Of a DNA stretch of 64,000 nt, positions 18,950 through 32,812 are shown in pieces; position 1 is the first letter of the stretch, and every line of letters begins with the position of its first letter. Both the position numbers and the translations under genes were made by a program. Origin of the DNA: Polystyrenella longa (GTDB lineage: Bacteria > Planctomycetota > Planctomycetia > Planctomycetales > Planctomycetaceae); assembly GCF_007750395.1 (NCBI RefSeq), contig NZ_CP036281.1, forward strand, positions 2,255,001-2,319,000. Direction: 5' to 3'. Below the pieces are notes generated by a model that searched no databases, was not told the origin of the DNA, and was given only the letters and a program-made list of their open reading frames with translations.

Positions 18950-19312
18950 TCATGTAATTATCATGCCGAGGCGGGTCTGCTCAAACGTCCCGCTGATTCA
19001 ATTCTCGAAGAAATATTCGTGAATGAATCGAACGCGGTAATGGACTGATCACCTTTGCCGTGCGATTAAAGTGTTAAGTGAATTGGAAGATGAAAACTAT
19101 TAAGTCAGTATAGTCAGACCGCTCCAGTTTTTCAGGACTCAACTGGGGCGGTTTGGCAATACTACTCAGGCTGTTCAGTCATCCGAGAATTCTCGATGCA
19201 TGTCACTCTGCTTCTGACTTCCATTTACAAGCTGGAACTCATTTGTCGAAATACAATGAACTCTGCTTCGCTCTCATTCCCCCAGGCGTCTTAATAACGG
19301 ATTTCTCCTACG
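18950..19312. promoter_or_regulatory. Intergenic region: terminator plus leader of the SbnA-like cluster
   Basis: 363 bp. It holds a terminator hairpin (19118-19152) and, 118 bp before the cluster start, the perfect 12-bp palindrome CGAGAATTCTCG (19184-19195), which could be an operator. I found no Fur-box-like sequence by eye. Confidence 0.4.
19118..19152 (+). terminator. Hairpin terminator after DUF2383 gene
   Basis: 12-bp arms ACCGCTCCAGTT / AACTGGGGCGGT (one G-T wobble) with an 11-nt loop; followed by TTGG rather than a long T-run. Confidence 0.6.
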
Positions 19313-20518
19313 ATGATACAGCAGTCTATAGTGGTTCCCGGTAGCTATAATCACGGATACATCCATCAGTTACCACTCACGAAGCATGCGTTCCCTGCTT
19401 ACCCGGAGACGCCACCCCGTCGTACTATCGACTCGGGAGTTCTTTCTGCGATTGGCTATACGCCTCTTATTTGTTTAAACCAGTACATCGATGACCGAGT
19501 TCAATTGCACGTCAAACTCGAAGCGTTGAATCCGGGTGGAAGTGCCAAGGATCGTCCCGCAGCATTGATGATTACGGAAGCACTCAATGCAGGCCAGATA
19601 TCTCAGAATACGACTATCATCGAATCCTCCTCTGGCAACATGGGTGTAGGGTTGGCGCAGGTATGCGGGTACTACGGACTGTCATTAATTTGTGTTGTCG
19701 ATTCCAAGGCTCAGCCCCAGAATGTGCAGATCATGGAGGCCTTGGGAGCACACATTGTTCGAGTCGACGATCCTGAAGATGGTGACTTCCTCGGTAAACG
19801 GCTTGAACGAGTACAATCTCTTGTCCGCGCGATACCAGATTCCTACTGGCCTAATCAATACGCAAACGAACTCAATCCCAAGTCACATCAGACAGGAACG
19901 ATCAAGGAAATAATTCAGGAGATGAGCGTTGTTCCCGACTACCTATTCGTCGCGACAAGTAGTACAGGGACGGCACAAGGATGCCAGAATTATCTTAAGC
20001 AACATAAACTGCCCACTCAGGTCGTAGCCGTAGATGCTGTGGGAAGCGTGTTGTTTGGCGGTTCGCATGGCCCTCGACGAATTCCCGGTTTGGGAACGGG
20101 CTGCATTCCTCCCTTGGCAGACGGTCAGAGTTTCTCACATGTGAAGCGAGTCAACGATCTCGACTGCGTCGTCGGATGCCGTCGTATGGCATCGAGAGAA
20201 GCGATGCTGGTGGGTGGCTCGGCGGGTGGCGTAATGGAAGCAATCTATTCCATGCGATCAGAATTAAGAGGGAAATCATGTGTTGCCATACTGCATGACT
20301 CGGGGACTCGTTATCTCGACACGGTGTATTCCGATGATTGGGTTGAGTCGACATTAGGTTGTAACTTGGAAGACCTGAAACAACGAGTTGGCAGACGGAA
20401 GCAACGAAAGCGGAACCGATACTTTGTAACGGGGGTTCCCAGATTGAAATCGAAATCAAAATTCTTAGAACATAATCACAGCCTTACTGTGGAGGAATCA
20501 AAACAGATACTGTCATGA
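19313..20518 (+). CDS. SbnA-like PLP-dependent synthase (cysteine synthase superfamily)
   Basis: A fold-II PLP enzyme of 401 aa. The Schiff-base Lys79 lies in NPGGSAKDRPA, which is the SbnA-type form (cysteine synthases usually read SxKDR). The phosphate/substrate loop is SSSGNMGVGLAQ, the glycine loop is TSSTGTAQG, and GGSAGG is near the end of the core. In staphyloferrin B synthesis SbnA joins O-phosphoserine and glutamate to make the precursor of L-2,3-diaminopropionate. A similar reaction here is an inference from the motif and from the neighbours; an O-acetylserine- or O-phosphoserine-dependent cysteine synthase is the alternative. The N-terminus has a 40-residue extension and the C-terminus a basic tail of about 50 residues. 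No strong Shine-Dalgarno. Its stop overlaps the next gene (ATGA). Confidence 0.85.
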   Translation: MIQQSIVVPGSYNHGYIHQLPLTKHAFPAYPETPPRRTIDSGVLSAIGYTPLICLNQYIDDRVQLHVKLEALNPGGSAKDRPAALMITEALNAGQISQNTTIIESSSGNMGVGLAQVCGYYGLSLICVVDSKAQPQNVQIMEALGAHIVRVDDPEDGDFLGKRLERVQSLVRAIPDSYWPNQYANELNPKSHQTGTIKEIIQEMSVVPDYLFVATSSTGTAQGCQNYLKQHKLPTQVVAVDAVGSVLFGGSHGPRRIPGLGTGCIPPLADGQSFSHVKRVNDLDCVVGCRRMASREAMLVGGSAGGVMEAIYSMRSELRGKSCVAILHDSGTRYLDTVYSDDWVESTLGCNLEDLKQRVGRRKQRKRNRYFVTGVPRLKSKSKFLEHNHSLTVEESKQILS

Positions 20519-22452
20519 ACGATCAGGAAAATACCAGTATGGAAACTAATCCCACTCAAAAACATAAAGATACCCCGGTGGGTAAAGAGTCAGCGTTGAA
20601 GATTGCCATTGTAGGAGGCGGTCCGCGTGGCCTTTACTCTTTGGAAAGGCTATTGCATTACGCCCGCCAGATCGCACCGCAACGCATTCGCGTTTGTCTC
20701 TACGATACCAGTGGTCAACCAGGAGCAGGAACAGTCTATTCACCCAAGCAGCCTGCATGGTTGCTGATGAATTACAGTTCCAAAAATATCGATGCCTGGG
20801 TACGTGACGATATGGGATCAGAAGACCCGATGTCACCTGAGTCAATCAGACACGATTTGGAGAATTATCCTTCGCTCGTTCAATGGTTGGACAAGCATCA
20901 TCCAGAAATGGCCGACCCCGACCAGGCTATTCCCCGAGCCATCGCGGGAGAATACTTTCGGGATTGCTATGCACAGGTACTGCGTGAGAAACCAGAAAAT
21001 GTGAGCTTCGTTCTCAAGTCAGCGACCGTCAAAGACGTTGTTCGTCAAAAAGATCGTTGGGCGGTAATGACAGTGGAGGAATCCCAGGAGTACGACGAAG
21101 TGTTGCTTAGTCTAGGGCATGGTGCCAATGTCGGAAGTGCGAATCCTGAAGAATGGTTTCATCCTCATTCCTATGAGAGTCGAGTCGGGATGTCGCAAAA
21201 CCGGACTAAACATCTCGTCAACTCCACGTACCCGGTCGCGGCGCAACTTTCGGAAGAGAAAGTTCAACCGGGTAGTAAAGTCGCCATCAGAGGTTTTGGA
21301 CTTACTTTCATTGATGCCTGTCTCAGTCTCACCGAGGGGCGTGGCGGTAAATTCAAACAACTAAAAACTGGTGAATGGGAATACGAAATGTCCGGGCATG
21401 AACCGGAGATAATCTATCCCTATTCTCGTACCGGACGGCCGATGTTAGCTAAACCGGACGCTCGGAAAGTGACGAGAAGCCCCGGGTTATCCACAATTTG
21501 GAAGCGAGGCAAGGAGCAGTTAAGAAAGTTAGAGTCTTCCGAGTATGGGTTGGATTTTAATTCCCAGATGAAACCGATTCTCGTGGAGACTGCGGCAGAA
21601 GCTTTGAGAGTTCAGCAGGGAGAAAAGACGAAAGAAGGAATAACATCCACATTCAGATATGATGAACCGTCTTCTGATTCGATGTTGAGCTGGTTGGCAG
21701 GATGGAGCGGTGGGACAGTGTTTCCGGTTGATATTTGGAACCGTCTGACCGATTCTTATCGGACGGCGACCGGTCTTCGACCTGCCGATGAAGCCTGGGC
21801 GATAGCAGAAACGTGGAGAGAACTATACCCTGCCCTGGTGGAGAGAATCAGTTATGGAGGTTTGTCCGAAGCGAGTTGGGAATTGTTCCAGCTTTATGCT
21901 GCGGAAATGGAACGAATCGCTTTTGGCCCTCCCGCCGAATCCGTTGGCAAGTTGCTTGCCCTTATAAAATCCGGGCTGGTAGAATTAAGATTCCTTACAG
22001 GTTCGCCCGTTGCTTTTGTGAAGCAGCATCCTCTGGAATCGCAATCGGAACTTATTCTGCGTAATGATCAATCGCAGATCATTGTCGATAGCATCGTCAA
22101 TGCGGTACTTCCCGCTTCTCAACATGCGACGGAAGGTTCGTTGCTGTATAATCTCTTGCAGCGGAAAACTCTGAGCCGGTTTCGAAATACGGGTGGTATC
22201 GCCGTTGATCATGAGACGAATGCACTTAATGAGATGGAACATGCCGTGTCTGGTCTTTCCGTAGTGGGACGGCCAACGGAAGGATGTGTGCTTGGGAATG
22301 ATACATTGAGCCGAACATTGCATCCCGAATCGGATCGATGGGCAAAACGCCTCATAAAATCATTCACTCAAACGAATTCAAATATGCAAATGAAGCTGAA
22401 GAACGAAGAACTTCTTAAAGAACATTCAGATACGCTGATTAATCAAGCCTGA
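20515..22452 (+). CDS. FAD/NAD(P)-binding protein (NAD_binding_9-type), middle gene of the SbnA-like cluster
   Basis: A 645-aa flavoprotein-like enzyme. After about 22 polar residues it has a Rossmann motif (IAIVGGGPRGLYSLERLL), then DTSGQPGAGTVYSP and WLLMNYSSKNIDAWVRDD, typical of pfam13454-type FAD-NAD(P)-binding proteins distantly related to N-hydroxylating monooxygenases. A second nucleotide-binding-like segment reads GSKVAIRGFGLTFIDACLSLTEG. The C-terminal part ends with GLSVVGRPTEGCVLGNDTLSRT, resembling the closing FAD-contact region. The substrate is unknown; oxidation of an amino-acid-derived intermediate is the simplest guess. It overlaps the upstream gene by 4 nt and precedes the decarboxylase by 86 nt, so it is almost certainly one operon. 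Confidence 0.8.
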   Translation: MNDQENTSMETNPTQKHKDTPVGKESALKIAIVGGGPRGLYSLERLLHYARQIAPQRIRVCLYDTSGQPGAGTVYSPKQPAWLLMNYSSKNIDAWVRDDMGSEDPMSPESIRHDLENYPSLVQWLDKHHPEMADPDQAIPRAIAGEYFRDCYAQVLREKPENVSFVLKSATVKDVVRQKDRWAVMTVEESQEYDEVLLSLGHGANVGSANPEEWFHPHSYESRVGMSQNRTKHLVNSTYPVAAQLSEEKVQPGSKVAIRGFGLTFIDACLSLTEGRGGKFKQLKTGEWEYEMSGHEPEIIYPYSRTGRPMLAKPDARKVTRSPGLSTIWKRGKEQLRKLESSEYGLDFNSQMKPILVETAAEALRVQQGEKTKEGITSTFRYDEPSSDSMLSWLAGWSGGTVFPVDIWNRLTDSYRTATGLRPADEAWAIAETWRELYPALVERISYGGLSEASWELFQLYAAEMERIAFGPPAESVGKLLALIKSGLVELRFLTGSPVAFVKQHPLESQSELILRNDQSQIIVDSIVNAVLPASQHATEGSLLYNLLQRKTLSRFRNTGGIAVDHETNALNEMEHAVSGLSVVGRPTEGCVLGNDTLSRTLHPESDRWAKRLIKSFTQTNSNMQMKLKNEELLKEHSDTLINQA

Positions 22453-22538
22453 ATGATCGTACTGGTGACTGGCGATTCATTTGACGAATTCTGCCTGATC
22501 CGGTTGAAAAATCGAATGGTCCAGGAAGGACTCCTGTT

Positions 22539-24071
22539 ATGTCTGACAACCCTGTTCAAGGCGGCCAGTTTGAGGAGACCACTGCGGGCTCCTCGGACGA
22601 GGCAAAAGACCAGCAACGCGACGTTCTTACGAATTGTCAGGGAGTGCTTCCTCTAGCAGCTCGCCTGGAACCGTGGATGTTGCGGCTGTGCAATAATCAA
22701 AAGCTGGCCCCACTCGTAAACGAGTATGGTTCGCCATTGAATGTCCTGAATGACCGATCTTTTCGACGAAACATCGCTCGTCTCTATCAGGTTGCCGAGT
22801 CTCAACAATTGCCATTCGATCTCTATTTCGCCCGTAAAGCAAATAAGTGTCTGGGATTTCTGGACGTCGTTCAGGAATTAGGCTGTGGTGTAGACACTGC
22901 CAGTGAACCCGAGTTGGAGCAGACGCTTAAAAAAGGTGTTCCGGGAGATAAAATTGTCTGTACTGCAGCGGTGAAGTCAGCTCACTTGCTGGATTTGTGT
23001 ATTGAAAATGGCGTGACGATTGTCATTGATAATGCAGATGAACTTCGCATTGCCGCTTACATCGCCTGTCAAAAAAATAAAGAGGCTTTAATCGCGGTAC
23101 GCGTTAGTGAATTTGAGCATCAGGGTACGACCCTCGAATCCCGTTTTGGATTTGCGATTTCAGTGCTGCGAAACCATTTCCACCAATTAATGAATCAGGA
23201 ACATGTGTCGGAATGTGTTCGGCTGACGGGAGTTCAGTTTCATCTGAACGGTTATTGCGTGGAAGAACGAGTTTCTGCATTACGGGAACTTTTACCACTG
23301 ATTGATCATTGGCGAACTGAAGGGCATGACATTCAGTTTCTCGATATTGGTGGCGGGTTTCCGATGTCCTATCTCAAATCGAGGCAGGAGTGGTCAATTT
23401 TCTGGTTGGAGCATTCTCGGGCTCTGATGGGACGACGGTCGGTGATTACCTATCGGAATCATGGATTAGGTCTGATGGCCGTGAATGATCAGATTTATGG
23501 AGAACGGAACAGTTATCCCTACTGGCAATCTCCTGTTCAGGGTGAATGGTTTGAACAACTGCTCGACTCCAGCTGTGGTTTAACGACCGTTGCAGGTGCG
23601 ATTAAAAAACGAGAACTGGAATTACGTTGTGAACCAGGACGGAGTTTGCTGGATGGGTGCGGAATGACGATTGCTCGCGTCGAGTATCGCAAACAACGAT
23701 CCAATGGAGACTGGATGATCGGATTAGCGATGAACCATACGCAGTGCCGCACCAGCAACGATGACTTTCTGGTAGACCCCCTGCTCGTCCCTTCTCATCC
23801 TGTTCAGACAGGGCGAGGTTCGTTTTCCAATAATCCTCCTATGGAAGGTTACCTGGTGGGAGCCTACTGCACAGAGAGCGAACTATTGGCGTTAAGGAAG
23901 TTAAAATTCTCGAATGGGATCTCAGTGGGAGATAATATCGTGTTTCCCAATACGGCTGGTTACCTCATGCATTTTCGGGAGAGTCGCTCGCATCAGTTTC
24001 CTTTAGCAAAGAACGTGTTTCTCAATGAGACACAAGATACGATTCAACTGGATGAAATAGAACAAATTTAG
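22539..24071 (+). CDS. Fold-III PLP-dependent decarboxylase (DAP/ornithine decarboxylase-like, Y4yA-type)
   Basis: A 510-aa alanine-racemase-fold enzyme. The PLP Lys100 is in DLYFARKANKC, followed by CGVDTASEPELEQ, the phosphate loop LDIGGGFPMSY, and the C-terminal CEPGRSLLDGCG. Such enzymes decarboxylate D- or L-amino acids at an alpha carbon. In siderophore pathways a relative (SbnH) decarboxylates a citryl-diaminopropionate intermediate, and the rhizobial protein Y4yA, which I recall lying near a cysteine-synthase-like Y4xP, is a closer-looking type. The usual DAPDC/ODC barrel is preceded by about 55 extra residues. The start ATG has AGGAAGGA about 8 nt upstream. An 11-bp inverted repeat follows the gene. 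Confidence 0.83.
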   Translation: MSDNPVQGGQFEETTAGSSDEAKDQQRDVLTNCQGVLPLAARLEPWMLRLCNNQKLAPLVNEYGSPLNVLNDRSFRRNIARLYQVAESQQLPFDLYFARKANKCLGFLDVVQELGCGVDTASEPELEQTLKKGVPGDKIVCTAAVKSAHLLDLCIENGVTIVIDNADELRIAAYIACQKNKEALIAVRVSEFEHQGTTLESRFGFAISVLRNHFHQLMNQEHVSECVRLTGVQFHLNGYCVEERVSALRELLPLIDHWRTEGHDIQFLDIGGGFPMSYLKSRQEWSIFWLEHSRALMGRRSVITYRNHGLGLMAVNDQIYGERNSYPYWQSPVQGEWFEQLLDSSCGLTTVAGAIKKRELELRCEPGRSLLDGCGMTIARVEYRKQRSNGDWMIGLAMNHTQCRTSNDDFLVDPLLVPSHPVQTGRGSFSNNPPMEGYLVGAYCTESELLALRKLKFSNGISVGDNIVFPNTAGYLMHFRESRSHQFPLAKNVFLNETQDTIQLDEIEQI

Positions 24072-24431
24072 ATGACGTTCAGCGACGGAATTATTTCTAG
24101 TAGTAGTTTCAAAACCCTCTGATGGGTCACGTTCACCCTGTCCATGTAGAGTATAAGACAGCCACAACCGGGTTTTGAAATGGCCCCTAGATATCAGATG
24201 CCTCATTCCATCAAATCACGTTACTTAGCTATGATGAAAATCGTTAATAAAAACTGTAAAGATCGAAGGAATACCTGCGGTATCGATCCAAAAACTGTAA
24301 TCAAAATTATTGTATAACGAGAGTGTATTGTAACTCTTCAATAAACAGTCTTTCCAGGAACCCCTCCTCAACTGACAGTATAACTGAATGTTAAACTCCA
24401 TCGTTAACTCGAGAGAAGAGAGGGTCATCTT
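24072..24431. other. Intergenic region with long inverted repeat between decarboxylase and catalase
   Basis: 360 bp without a supported gene. Perfect 11-bp arms TTTCAAAACCC (24107-24117) and GGGTTTTGAAA (24170-24180) enclose 52 nt with a competing ACCC/GGGT hairpin (24114-24127). This could close the upstream operon or be a leader of the catalase gene. The rest is AT-rich and probably the catalase promoter. Confidence 0.5.
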
Positions 24432-26510
24432 ATGTCGAAGGGCAAAGATAAACAGGCGAAACCATCCGTTCGAAAAGGTAACGGAGGCGAATGGCACCAA
24501 GAGGCGAAATCAACCAAAGAGCGAATGACGACTAATCAGGGGGTGGTCGTTTCGGATGATCAAAACTCGCTCAAGGTGGGAGGGCGCGGCTCGACTTTGC
24601 TGGAAGATTTTCATCTACGAGAAAAGATTACTCACTTTGACCATGAACGCATTCCCGAGCGCGTGGTCCATGCTCGCGGCTATGGTGCTCATGGCTACTT
24701 TCAAGCTTATGAATCTCATGCTAGCTTGACCAAGGCTGCTTTCCTACAGAACCCCTCTGAGAAAACTCCTGTCTTTGTGCGGTTTTCGACGGTCGCAGGA
24801 AGCAAAGGCTCGCCAGATACGGCTCGGGACGTACGTGGGTTTGCTGTTAAGTTCTACACGCAGGAGGGGAACTATGACTTGGTGGGCAACAATATGCCCG
24901 TCTTCTTTATCCAAGATGCGATCAAGTTCCCAGATCTAATTCATGCAGTGAAGCCGGCTCCCGATCGTGACTTTCCACAGGCACAGTCTGCTCACGATTC
25001 TTTCTGGGACTTTGTTTCCCTGATGCCGGAAAGCATGCATATGCTGGTGTGGGTGATGTCGGACCGTGCGATTCCCCGGTCGCTAAGAATGATGGAGGGG
25101 TTTGGAATTCATACCTTCCGGATGATCAATGCCGACGGTGAAAGTACGTTGGTGAAGTTTCACTGGCGACCCAAACAGGGGATTTTCTCCCTGATATGGG
25201 ACGAAGCCGTTGTGATTTCAGGGGCCGATCCCGATTTTCATCGTCGCGACATGTGGAACTCTATTGAGGCAGGAGATTACCCGGAGTGGGAACTCTCCGT
25301 GCAGGTCTTTACGGAAGAGGAAGCCAACAAGTTCGACTACGATGTGCTCGATCCTACGAAGCTGATTCCAGAAGAAGATGTTCCTTTAACGCCGTTAGGA
25401 AAAATGGTGCTTGATCGCAATGTTGACAACTTCTTTGCGGAAACGGAACAGGTCGCCTTCTGTCCTGCGAACATTGTTCCCGGAATCGATTTCTCTAACG
25501 ACCCGCTGTTACAGGGAAGGTTGTTCTCTTATCTGGATACTCAATTGACACGGTTGGGCGGACCGAATTTCCAACAGATCCCTGTGAACCAACCAAAGTG
25601 TCCCATGCAAAACCTGCAACGGGATGGTCATATGCAGATGGACATTCCCAAGGGACGAGTTTCCAATGAGCCCAGCTCACTCGATGATGGCTTACCCCGT
25701 GAATGTGATAAAACAGGATTTAAATCTTATCCTGAGAAAGTGTCCGGAGAAAAATTACGAATTCGACCGGAGAGTTTTGCAGATCATTACACACAGGCGC
25801 GATTGTTTTATAAGTCCATGACGGGTTATGAACAGGATCACATCGCGGGTGGATTTGCTTTTGAACTTGGCAAATGTCAGAAGATCGAAGTTCGCGAGCG
25901 AATGATTGCACATTTGCTTAATATTGATAAGGAGTTGGCAGGAAAAGTTGCTGATAACCTGGGGATGAATACAAATGTTGAGCCGATCAAACCTGCCGTC
26001 CCTGTAAAAGATATGCCGCTTTCGGACGCACTGTCGCAGTATAAGAAGACTCCAGATACCTTAGCCGGTAAAAAAGTCGGACTACTCACGACTGATGGCA
26101 TTGATGCGGCGTTCTTCATGAATCTGGAAGAAGCCGTGATGGATGCCGGGGCTAATATTGAAGTCGTCGCTTTGAAAGCGGGACCGATGATGGATAGCGA
26201 AGGGAATGAAATCATACCGGATCATTTTCTTTCAGGAGCCCCCTCAGCTCTGTTCGACTCCGTGGTAGTGGCACCAACGGAAGACATGGCCAAGAAGTTG
26301 GCGGATAATCCGAATGCAGTAGATTGGATTCGGATGGCAAATGCCCATCTAAAAGTGATTGGATATACCGACCAGGCCATGAACCTTCTGAAAAAATCAC
26401 ATATCAAACCGGGGCAGGACGAAGGGATTGTTCTGCTTGATATGTCTAAGAATAACTTCGATGATTACCTTAATGCGGCGAAGAAGCACCGCATCTGGGA
26501 TCGAAGCTAA
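24432..26510 (+). CDS. katE: Large-subunit catalase (HPII/KatE type) with C-terminal GATase-like domain
   Basis: Disproportionates hydrogen peroxide. At 692 aa it matches the large clade-2 heme catalases. The essential His80 lies in [12 protein letters not shown], the distal Asn in [12 protein letters not shown] (about 153), and the proximal heme-ligand Tyr367 in [14 protein letters not shown]. From about residue 550 a flavodoxin-like domain ([27 protein letters not shown]) completes the large-subunit type. Lys/Gly-rich N-terminal residues 1-30 have no signal peptide, so it is cytoplasmic. Start ATG after GAGAAGAGAGGG. Followed by a strong hairpin. No regulator gene is adjacent. Confidence 0.96.
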
Positions 26511-29966: not shown

Positions 29967-30851
29967 ATGCATGTTTCCATCGATACCAGTGATTTCAAAG
30001 TAACGGGGAAGTCGAAATTAAAGCTGGAGGAACAAAAAACGAAAGTCAAAGACTTCTATAGATCGAAGTCAGAATACAAAGAGCTCCTGAGCGAGTTTCA
30101 AGATGAAATCAATGAGCTGCAGCGGATGATGTATGCTCATGATCGCTACAGCATGCTGCTTGTTTTTCAAGCGATGGATGCTGCCGGTAAAGATGGGACG
30201 ATCCGGGCAATTATGTCGGGTGTGAATGCACATGGGATAGACGTTCATGCATTCAAACAGCCCAGTTCAACGGAGTTGGATCACGACTTTCTCTGGCGCA
30301 CGACCATTCGCCTGCCCCAACGGGGACGCATCGGGATATTCAACCGGTCGTATTATGAAGAAGTGCTGGTTGTTCGCGTTCATCCCGAGATAATCATGCA
30401 GTCTCAAAAGCTGCCTGAACAGCTGACACAGGATATGAGCCAACTGTGGAAAAACCGTTACGAATCGATTCGTGATTACGAAAAACATCTCGGACACAGT
30501 GGAACGAAAGTCGTTAAATTCTTTCTTAACTTGGGTCGAGATGAACAGCGTGATCGCTTTCTTGATCGAATCGATGAGCCGGAGAAGAACTGGAAGTTTT
30601 CGGAAGGCGATGTAAAAGAACGTAAATTCTGGGACGATTACCAGAAGGCGTACGAAGATGCGATCAATGCGACTGCGACCAAAGCAGCACCATGGTATGT
30701 CGTGCCTGCCGATGATAAAAAGAACATGCGGTTAATTGTGTCTCAGATTGTGCTGGAACAACTTCAAGATCTGGATATGAAATATCCAGAGGTCTCCGAC
30801 GAACGTCGCGAGGAGTTGCAAGGGTATCGGCAGCGTTTGTTGGACGACTGA
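29967..30851 (+). CDS. ppk2: Polyphosphate kinase 2 (PPK2) family protein
   Basis: Transfers phosphate between polyphosphate and nucleotides. At 294 aa it is a single-domain PPK2. The Walker A loop is AMDAAGKDG (69-77), the lid/arginine region is SGVNAHGIDVHAFKQP, and the Walker B-side motif is RIGIFNRSYYEEV. Later family blocks are KFFLNLGRDEQRDRFLDRID and WKFSEGDVKER, then APWYVVPADDKKNMRLIVSQ. Whether it makes NDP, NTP or polyphosphate (class I, II or III) is not decided by these motifs. AAGGA sits 8 nt before the ATG. 70 nt separate it from the MoxR operon, to which it may or may not belong. Confidence 0.94.
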   Translation: MHVSIDTSDFKVTGKSKLKLEEQKTKVKDFYRSKSEYKELLSEFQDEINELQRMMYAHDRYSMLLVFQAMDAAGKDGTIRAIMSGVNAHGIDVHAFKQPSSTELDHDFLWRTTIRLPQRGRIGIFNRSYYEEVLVVRVHPEIIMQSQKLPEQLTQDMSQLWKNRYESIRDYEKHLGHSGTKVVKFFLNLGRDEQRDRFLDRIDEPEKNWKFSEGDVKERKFWDDYQKAYEDAINATATKAAPWYVVPADDKKNMRLIVSQIVLEQLQDLDMKYPEVSDERREELQGYRQRLLDD

Positions 30852-30921
30852 ATGGAAATACCGGATTCATTTCAATTGAAGATTCTTATAATGAGAATGA
30901 AGTAGAGGCGAGAGATTATTT

Positions 30922-31881
30922 ATGGATTTACGTGAATCAGTTAAGCAGATTTCCGTTGCGATGAATGCGGCTGTTGTCGGACAGGAAAAAGTAGTCGAAC
31001 GGCTTATTGTTGCTTTGTTAGCCGATGGTCATGTTTTAATGGAAGGGCTTCCCGGGACTGCCAAAACTCGTTCCATCAAGACGTTATCCAGTTTGATTGA
31101 AAGTCAGTTCAGCCGCGTACAATTTACCCCTGACCTGCTCCCTTCCGACGTGACCGGTTCCGATATTTACCGTGAGCAAACGGGTACCTTTGAATTTCAG
31201 CAAGGGCCGATCTTCGGAAACCTCGTGCTTGCCGACGAAATTAACCGGGCGCCTGCTAAGGTTCAGTCTGCATTGCTGGAGGCCATGGAAGAGCGGCAAG
31301 TCACCGTAGCAGGGCAAACGCATAAGCTGCCCGACCTGTTTCTTGTTATGGCGACACAAAACCCGATTGAACAGGAAGGAACCTACCCCCTTCCCGAAGC
31401 ACAGATGGACCGGTTTCTGCTATATGTGAATGTTGATTACTCCGATAGTCAGACCGAGATGGCCATTCTGAAGCTGGTCCGGAAAGAAAAAGCTTCACAG
31501 GCACCTTCACCCCCTACTCCAGTTGCTCAGGACGTCATTTTCGAGGCACGGAAACAGGTACTGGATACACATGTCGCAGAGGCGGCGGAGCGTTATATCG
31601 TCGACTTGGTGATGGCGACACGAGAACCGGATAAGTTCGGTGGAAATCTGGCGAAGTGGATTCGTCTCGGGGCAAGTCCACGCGGTACGCTCGCGCTGGA
31701 TGCCGCTGCCCGGGCACATGCCTGGCTCAACAGTCAGGACTTCGTATCGCCGGAAAACATTCGGGCCGTTACCCCTGCTTGTCTCGCCCATCGTCTGCAT
31801 TTGACCTACGAGGCAGAAGCGGCTGGCGTATCACGGACAGACGTGATTGATGAGTTGTTGAAGAGTGTCGTCCCGGTTTAA
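30922..31881 (+). CDS. moxR: MoxR-family AAA+ ATPase
   Basis: A 319-aa chaperone-like ATPase. Walker A GLPGTAKT (42-49), Walker B LVLADE (101-106), sensor 1 MATQNPIEQEG, and the lid domain containing GASPRGTLALDAAARAHAW. MoxR ATPases work with VWA-domain partners in metal insertion or protein maturation. This one heads the classical order MoxR-DUF58-DUF4381-VWA-VWA-TPR-BatD found in many bacteria as the Bat (aerotolerance) operon. The next gene starts 10 nt after its stop. Cytoplasmic. Confidence 0.95.
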   Translation: MDLRESVKQISVAMNAAVVGQEKVVERLIVALLADGHVLMEGLPGTAKTRSIKTLSSLIESQFSRVQFTPDLLPSDVTGSDIYREQTGTFEFQQGPIFGNLVLADEINRAPAKVQSALLEAMEERQVTVAGQTHKLPDLFLVMATQNPIEQEGTYPLPEAQMDRFLLYVNVDYSDSQTEMAILKLVRKEKASQAPSPPTPVAQDVIFEARKQVLDTHVAEAAERYIVDLVMATREPDKFGGNLAKWIRLGASPRGTLALDAAARAHAWLNSQDFVSPENIRAVTPACLAHRLHLTYEAEAAGVSRTDVIDELLKSVVPV

Positions 31882-31891
31882 GGTTCTGTTA

Positions 31892-32812
31892 ATGAGTGCG
31901 CGTATTTCAATTAGCCTGGATGAGATGGTCCTGCTGAAAGCGGACGCGCGCGGTTTTTCATTCTTGCCTCGACAGCCCGTATCTTCATTACTTTCTGGCC
32001 GACATGCGTCCCGACTGCGGGGACGCGGATTGGCGTTCGAAGAACTGCGGCACTATCACCCGGGTGATGATATACGACTGATTGACTGGAAAGCGACAGC
32101 ACGCCTGCGGTCGACTCATGTAAGGGTCTTTAATGAGGAGCGGGAACGTCCTGTTCTTTTCGTTGTCGATCAGCGTGGGCCGATGTTCTTTGGAAGTCAA
32201 CGGGCGATGAAGTCGGTCGTGGCTGCTGAGTTAACCGCGTTGGGAGCGTGGCGTACGCTTGAGGCAGGAGATCGAGTGGGAGGAATCGTTTTCAACGATA
32301 ACGAGATCGCGGAAGTTCGTCCGCATCGTAGCCAATCGCGGCTGCTGCAACTCTTTCATCAGATCGTACAACAGAACCAGGCGTTAGCGGGTATAGATTC
32401 TCCCACCGACTCAGGTGCAACTGCAACTAACAGATTAAATGAAGCCCTTCAGAATGTGTTACACATCGCTAAACACGATCACCTGGTCGTTCTGATTAGC
32501 GATCTGGATGGAGCTGATTCAGATACCCATCGTCTATCGACATTGATCGCTGCACGTAATGACATGCTGGTTGCGGGGATATACGATCCTCTTGGTGCAT
32601 CGCTAAGGGGAGGCTCCGGAATGGTAGCGACGGATCGAGAAGAATCGTGGGAGATTCCGGTGGAAGCTTCTTTCACAGAGAAGTTCCAACAGAGTTTTCA
32701 GAATCGACTGGATGAATGGCGACAGGTGTTTCGGAACTTGAAAATCCCGGTCATTCCTGTGTCGACGTCCACATCTCCGGCGGAACAGATACGCTCACTC
32801 TTAGGTCATTAA
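31892..32812 (+). CDS. DUF58 domain protein of the MoxR/Bat operon
   Basis: A 306-aa soluble protein with the DUF58 signature RGRGLAFEELRHYHPGDDIRLIDWKATARL near residues 50-80 and HVRVFNEERERPVLFVVDQRG following; the rest is a VWA-like fold. An in-frame GTG at 31865 would overlap moxR, but the ATG at 31892 has AAGG 8 nt upstream and gives the usual N-terminus. DUF58 proteins are the regular partner of MoxR ATPases; their molecular role is not settled. The DXSXS motif of true metal-binding VWA domains is not obvious here (FVVDQRG). Confidence 0.9.
   Translation: MSARISISLDEMVLLKADARGFSFLPRQPVSSLLSGRHASRLRGRGLAFEELRHYHPGDDIRLIDWKATARLRSTHVRVFNEERERPVLFVVDQRGPMFFGSQRAMKSVVAAELTALGAWRTLEAGDRVGGIVFNDNEIAEVRPHRSQSRLLQLFHQIVQQNQALAGIDSPTDSGATATNRLNEALQNVLHIAKHDHLVVLISDLDGADSDTHRLSTLIAARNDMLVAGIYDPLGASLRGGSGMVATDREESWEIPVEASFTEKFQQSFQNRLDEWRQVFRNLKIPVIPVSTSTSPAEQIRSLLGH

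Follow-up and report, generated by a model that had tools for sequence, protein, structure and literature searches.

In the 64,000-nucleotide stretch of the Polystyrenella longa contig NZ_CP036281.1 analysed here (the window), three neighbouring genes, named A, B and C, encode a synthase and a decarboxylase that depend on pyridoxal phosphate (PLP) and, between them, an enzyme using flavin adenine dinucleotide (FAD) and NADPH (Table 1). A and C resemble SbnA and SbnH which, together with SbnB, carry out steps of staphyloferrin B synthesis in Staphylococcus aureus. The original prediction described three genes in the same direction, the first two overlapping by 4 nt, and this was borne out: the overlap of A and B is an ATGA at 20515-20518, and 86 nt separate B from C. 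Its span of 19313-24180 has the correct start but ends about 110 nt past the last stop codon at 24071.

Table 1. Position and assignment of the three genes in the window
Gene	Position	Strand	Length	Product
A	19313-20518	+	401 aa	Fold-II PLP enzyme of SbnA type, motif NPGGSAKDRP
B	20515-22452	+	645 aa	PF13454; FAD/NADPH enzyme of class B N-hydroxylating monooxygenase type; predicted N-oxygenase on the product of A
C	22539-24071	+	510 aa	PF02784; Y4yA-family fold-III PLP decarboxylase

A conserved three-gene unit

An alignment of B was used to scan one genome per species, 84,980 species in all. This returned 16 loci, in Planctomycetes, Rhodobacteraceae, Rhizobiaceae, one Acidobacteriota bin and Corynebacterium, and in 16/16 the three genes were found in the order A-B-C. 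Among 392 genomes sampled, the trio was also present in G057 and in five more of Planctomycetes (with the order kept in 5/5 besides G057), and it occurs on plasmids of Sulfitobacter and Tsukamurella. All close relatives of B that turned up lie in A-B-C loci, 25 of them in Planctomycetes, Alphaproteobacteria, Acidobacteriota and Actinobacteria, and the order is thus kept in at least 25 genomes. In a second member of the genus of the window organism, A and the start of B are located at a contig end. In Corynebacterium sputi (locus L026), B and C are fused in a single protein of 916 aa.

Distance matrices of A, B and C between loci were strongly correlated, with r of 0.86-0.92 compared to a permutation maximum of 0.38. 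Constant order and correlated distances rule out a chance adjacency of the three genes, and the trio is a genuine conserved gene unit. The original prediction had regarded the three genes as one conserved pathway, an idea that would have suffered had they never been found together elsewhere; instead they keep their order in all loci and co-evolve. No fourth conserved gene (transporter, regulator or lyase) was detected beyond close relatives in an all-against-all comparison of the flanks, nor was a shared motif found upstream of the trio. Alphaproteobacterial A sequences nest among planctomycete ones in a midpoint-rooted tree of A. Together with the patchy distribution of the trio across phyla, this nesting suggests that it has spread horizontally.

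Enzyme classes and the redox slot

Gene A passes the NCBIfam model of SbnA (TIGR03945) with 376.3 bits for a cut-off of 349.95, while its scores with cysteine-synthase models are far under their cut-offs, and its best match in the PDB is SbnA itself (5d84, E 1e-72). In SbnA, Lys47 is the PLP lysine, Arg132, Tyr152 and Ser185 provide selective binding of O-phosphoserine, and Gln151 touches the intermediate (PMC12414870). These residues (K47/R132/Q151/Y152/S185) align with K79/R163/Q182/Y183/S216 of A, and all five are identical in 25/25 loci. Family score and alignment thus identify A as an SbnA-type enzyme, as had been predicted. A plain cysteine synthase is ruled out by the model cut-offs and the specificity residues, and no grouping with such enzymes was observed. 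As judged from its family, A very probably condenses O-phosphoserine with glutamate to give ACEGA, a conjugate of 2,3-diaminopropionate (Dap).

The closest annotated relatives of C are named Y4yA family. Its structural model (predicted local distance difference test score, pLDDT, 86) matches diaminopimelate decarboxylase (DapDC), FslC, BtrK, ornithine decarboxylase and SbnH at Z 28-33 with no clear favourite; SbnH (6knh), at Z 29.2, lies amid many decarboxylases in this range. Alignment with DapDC places in C the PLP lysine, the stacking His, the GGG stretch, the EPGR phosphate and pyridine sites and the catalytic Cys and Tyr. K100, H235, GGG271-273, R368, C444 and Y475 are invariant in the 25 loci, and E365 is replaced by Q in one. 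These conserved sites mark C as a fold-III PLP decarboxylase with its full active site kept. This and the structural matches agree with the Y4yA/SbnH-like enzyme initially proposed.

By sequence, B has one solved relative, the Streptomyces sp. V2 L-aspartate N-hydroxylase (8cp2/8cp5), matched at E 4.5e-17 with B alone and at E 6e-48 with its family profile. The AlphaFold2 model of B (pLDDT 83, predicted template modelling score 0.84) displays the three-domain FAD/NADPH fold of L-aspartate N-hydroxylases (FzmM/CreE) and superimposes on 8cp5 with a VIA-align Z of 29.5 over 526 residues at 3.5 A, the next entry being at Z 19.3. Below 8cp5, PvdA, SidA, KtzI and other N-hydroxylases are mixed with flavin-containing monooxygenases and reductases. 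Asn62 of 8cp2 sits over the flavin C4a (PMC10404684) and corresponds to N86 of B, which is invariant in the 25 loci. Two residues of the 8cp2 arginine cluster are kept in B, R266 as K313 and R409 as R435. R276, of the aspartate pocket, falls at a variable position and is not kept. The aspartate contacts R412, N413 and R416 become Tyr, Pro and Val/Ile in B, in a region where the alignment is weak (18.7 bits). B thus retains the cofactor machinery of an N-hydroxylase, whereas its ligand is probably not aspartate. Sequence, catalytic Asn and predicted fold all place B as a relative of class B flavin N-hydroxylases, with FzmM the closest, and it is likely an N-oxygenase, not a dehydrogenase. The 'redox enzyme' with pfam13454 of the original prediction can be sharpened in this sense: B belongs to PF13454, not to the ornithine cyclodeaminase (OCD) family, and the matches to 8cp2/8cp5 specify its type.

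Homologues of A and C also occur with other redox enzymes. In Mycobacterium, Agrobacterium, Rhizobium and Rhodococcus both families are accompanied by SbnB-like proteins of the OCD family, usually with a multidrug and toxic compound extrusion (MATE) transporter. In Sinorhizobium NGR234, Bradyrhizobium, A. vitis, S. medicae and Serratia they are found with an octopine/nopaline dehydrogenase and IucA/IucC, usually with a major facilitator superfamily (MFS) gene. The latter clusters mirror the sbn operon, the opine dehydrogenase taking the place of SbnB, which would fit the nature of ACEGA as an opine-like secondary amine. In the trio, the redox slot is occupied by B. No match to the SbnB superfamily (PF02423) was obtained in 6/17 trio genomes, including the TBK1r chromosome record of 10.8 Mb. 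Because B holds the redox slot and these six genomes have no member of the SbnB superfamily, B is the likeliest enzyme to act on the product of SbnA, and probably does so. Two OCD genes do exist in the window genome, but they lie far away from the trio, and their scores of 98.6 and 51.3 bits are well under the SbnB cut-off of 326.9.

Several side observations concern these clusters. One of the two OCD genes of the window genome, near 3,634,300 (L027 1435-3473), was seen by eye to lie tail to tail with a serine O-acetyltransferase-like gene. The Y4yA-family clusters fall into types set by three unrelated redox partners, with the OCD type represented by L007, L009, L056, L057 and L060 and the opine dehydrogenase type by L042, L058, L059, L061 and L062. 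Clusters of the OCD type have MATE exporters and sometimes iron-type ATP-binding cassette (ABC) importers, without a synthetase for siderophores independent of nonribosomal peptide synthetases (NIS synthetase), and look like an undescribed family of minimal metallophore loci. On a Ti plasmid of Agrobacterium tumefaciens (L009 2245-7453), the Y4yA/SbnA/OCD cluster comes after a phosphonate set composed of an aepX phosphoenolpyruvate mutase, an aminotransferase, a cytidylyltransferase and a CDP-alcohol phosphatidyltransferase. In two trio loci, a SerK/SbnI-like gene with a ParB domain is located directly upstream of A; the proteins are short and score well below curated cut-offs, so that this assignment is weak. 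SerK/SbnI-like proteins would supply phosphoserine.

A candidate pathway and its alternatives

We tentatively propose that the trio is a complete and self-contained pathway, a reading to which we give somewhat less than an even chance. A, like SbnA, would join the glutamate amine to a serine in activated form (O-phosphoserine or perhaps O-acetylserine) and release ACEGA. B would replace SbnB as an N-oxygenase with a structure of the FzmM/CreE type that works as a single component with FAD and NADPH, and it would oxygenate ACEGA at its secondary amine. Were this nitrogen oxidised again, a nitrone would result, the hydrolysis of which would free 2-oxoglutarate and leave beta-N-hydroxy-Dap, so that cleavage and N-oxidation take place together. 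C would finally take off the alpha-carboxylate to yield an N-oxygenated product of the ethylenediamine type. This could be 2-(hydroxyamino)ethylamine or a compound oxidised beyond it, a precise assignment that we hold with low confidence. Successive oxidations by one enzyme are documented for an aspartate N-hydroxylase (PMC10404684), which makes a double oxidation by B plausible. For B, N-oxygenation of the ACEGA amine with release of 2-oxoglutarate and formation of an N-O bond would be a new reaction, and the three enzymes together would make a new free N-oxygenated diamine; we consider this possible, though on balance doubtful. The proposal builds on direct observations, namely the gene unit and its conservation, the enzyme classes and catalytic residues, the B-C fusion and several trio genomes devoid of SbnB-superfamily, NIS synthetase or TonB receptor genes; from these we infer the substrates, the order of the second and third steps and the product.

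Several points weigh against this proposal. B and 8cp2 are only about 23% identical, and a common fold is no proof of N-oxygenation, related folds including plain reductases (Z 19.3). Nor does a common genomic slot prove a common reaction, and both OCD-family and opine dehydrogenases can run reductively too. Some gene of the OCD superfamily is present in 11/17 trio genomes (in one only below the cut-off) and might supply the SbnB activity. To our knowledge, no member of the family of B has been established to split opine-like secondary amines by flavin-driven oxidation, and the chemistry of each step is derived from sequence and predicted fold.

The same slot and the same six genomes without the SbnB superfamily could also be explained if B were a flavin stand-in for SbnB, converting ACEGA into L-Dap and 2-oxoglutarate with no N-O bond formed; C would then turn Dap into ethylenediamine, a plain diamine product. 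However, B retains two features of oxygenases, the NADPH domain and the invariant Asn, whose counterpart in 8cp2 is placed over the flavin C4a. The nearest structural relative of B is an N-hydroxylase standing 10 Z units above the next entry. We regard this explanation as unlikely, though far from negligible. The order of the last two steps could be inverted as well, with C decarboxylating ACEGA itself and B hydroxylating the remaining secondary amine to an N-hydroxy aminocarboxylate, a small chelator. ACEGA is a Dap with a substituent on its beta-nitrogen, as is citryl-Dap, the substrate of SbnH. C, in turn, is folded like SbnH and FslC, two enzymes that act as decarboxylases of N-substituted diamino acids. 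The B-C fusion is compatible with either order, and Y4yA clusters of the OCD type adjoin MATE exporters and iron-type ABC importers. Nevertheless, the genes are arranged A-B-C, the trio loci have no common exporter or importer and no enrichment of Fur-like sites, and this inverted order appears distinctly improbable.

The metallophore or siderophore reading of the original prediction was not supported. The NIS synthetase domain (PF04183) was found in 0/18 trio genomes, with positive controls giving matches. Condensation domains of nonribosomal peptide synthetases (NRPS) are absent from the window genome and from 5/11 other trio genomes tested, and TonB receptors (PF00593) from the window genome and from 4/10 others tested. 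No exporter is common to the trio loci. With the E. coli Fur consensus, no enrichment of Fur-like sites was observed upstream of A in 20 loci. A siderophore of NIS or NRPS type is ruled out for the window organism by the absence of both synthetase markers and of a TonB receptor, and a classical siderophore is unlikely in general; the product may still be a small chelator handled by unlinked transporters. That the trio supplies the precursor of a classical siderophore finished elsewhere in the genome would accord with SbnA and SbnH-like enzymes serving staphyloferrin B, and with rhizobial Y4yA/SbnA clusters that contain an IucA/IucC gene and mostly encode an MFS transporter or TonB receptor as well. 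The synthetase and receptor results speak against this scheme, as does the lack of enriched Fur-like sites; it is already largely refuted for the window organism and retains the slightest chance of all. Finally, B could be a true aspartate N-hydroxylase leading through nitrosuccinate to nitrous acid or 3-nitropropionate, with A and C serving a partner substrate. The FzmM/CreE fold and cofactor machinery of B would allow this, and alanosine producers do pair an FzmM-type enzyme with Dap (PMC7347517). Yet the pocket residues R412, N413 and R416 of 8cp2 are Y, P and V/I in B, though the C-terminal alignment is weak, R276 is not kept, and the trio has no fourth common gene and hence no conserved lyase. 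Such an activity is highly improbable.

If the pathway we favour is correct, phosphoserine and glutamate would be converted into a small metabolite of hydroxylamine or nitro type by a route horizontally spread over four phyla, and the trio could lead to a new N-O metabolite of planctomycetes and marine alphaproteobacteria. As only three genes are involved, with neither carrier proteins nor synthetases, this chemistry can be directly rebuilt in vitro.

Genomic surroundings and relation to known systems

The trio has unrelated neighbours: upstream, a gene for a four-helix protein with DUF2383; downstream, genes for an HPII-type catalase and a NAD(P)-binding protein of short-chain dehydrogenase/reductase type. 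A large HPII-type catalase gene is located directly 3' of the trio both in the window (24432-26510) and in Sulfitobacter sp. F26169L (L025 13021-15078), that is, in 2/25 loci; this is perhaps due to chance, or perhaps the catalase guards against peroxide leaking from B. Between the DUF2383 gene and A, a near-perfect inverted repeat with an 11-nt loop was spotted by eye at 19119-19151 (CCGCTCCAGTT...AACTGGGGCGG then TTT) and is likely a terminator for the upstream gene. No structured RNA was found in the window. Further downstream (29967-32812), a gene for a PPK2-type polyphosphate kinase is followed by MoxR ATPase and DUF58 genes.

Among open-access papers, none was found to deal with the trio or with 'Y4yA family PLP-dependent' enzymes. 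Each enzyme class is already known; what is new is that they are combined, that an enzyme of N-hydroxylase type replaces SbnB, that B and C can be fused and that the cassette is autonomous. With the L-aspartate N-hydroxylases FzmM, CreE and the Streptomyces sp. V2 enzyme (8cp2/8cp5), B shares the three-domain FAD/NADPH fold and the catalytic Asn. It differs in its low identity (about 23%), in the aspartate-binding residues, which are not kept, and in being encoded with an SbnA-type enzyme and a decarboxylase. The alanosine pathway (aln/ala) likewise associates Dap, an FzmM-type enzyme and N-hydroxylation (PMC7347517), but there Dap is bound to a carrier, a different enzyme hydroxylates it, and many more genes are involved. 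The trio, for its part, is a compact, portable and apparently undescribed set made of a Dap synthase, an N-hydroxylase-type flavoenzyme and a decarboxylase; we know of no Y4yA decarboxylase in the alanosine pathway.

The y4yB-y4yA-y4xP-y4xO-y4xN-y4xM cluster of Sinorhizobium fredii NGR234 resembles the trio in that a Y4yA-family decarboxylase gene adjoins an SbnA/cysteine-synthase-like one, and it has a SerK/SbnI-like ParB gene, as do two trio loci. In contrast, its third enzyme is an octopine/nopaline dehydrogenase, it carries IucA/IucC and MFS genes, and A is only distantly similar (E 1e-41). The SbnA-OCD-Y4yA-MATE clusters of Mycobacterium, Rhizobium, Agrobacterium and Rhodococcus plasmids are likewise compact three-enzyme sets with homologues of A and C and without NIS synthetase; they have an SbnB-like OCD enzyme instead of B and mostly their own MATE transporter. 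Compared with the staphyloferrin B steps of S. aureus, A falls in the SbnA family by cut-off and by residues and C has the SbnH fold, whereas the trio genomes have no NIS synthetase and no common exporter, and an unrelated FAD/NADPH enzyme stands in for SbnB. Besides the SbnB-like and the opine dehydrogenases, B would be the third type of enzyme, unrelated to the other two, to serve the redox step that links SbnA to its decarboxylase.

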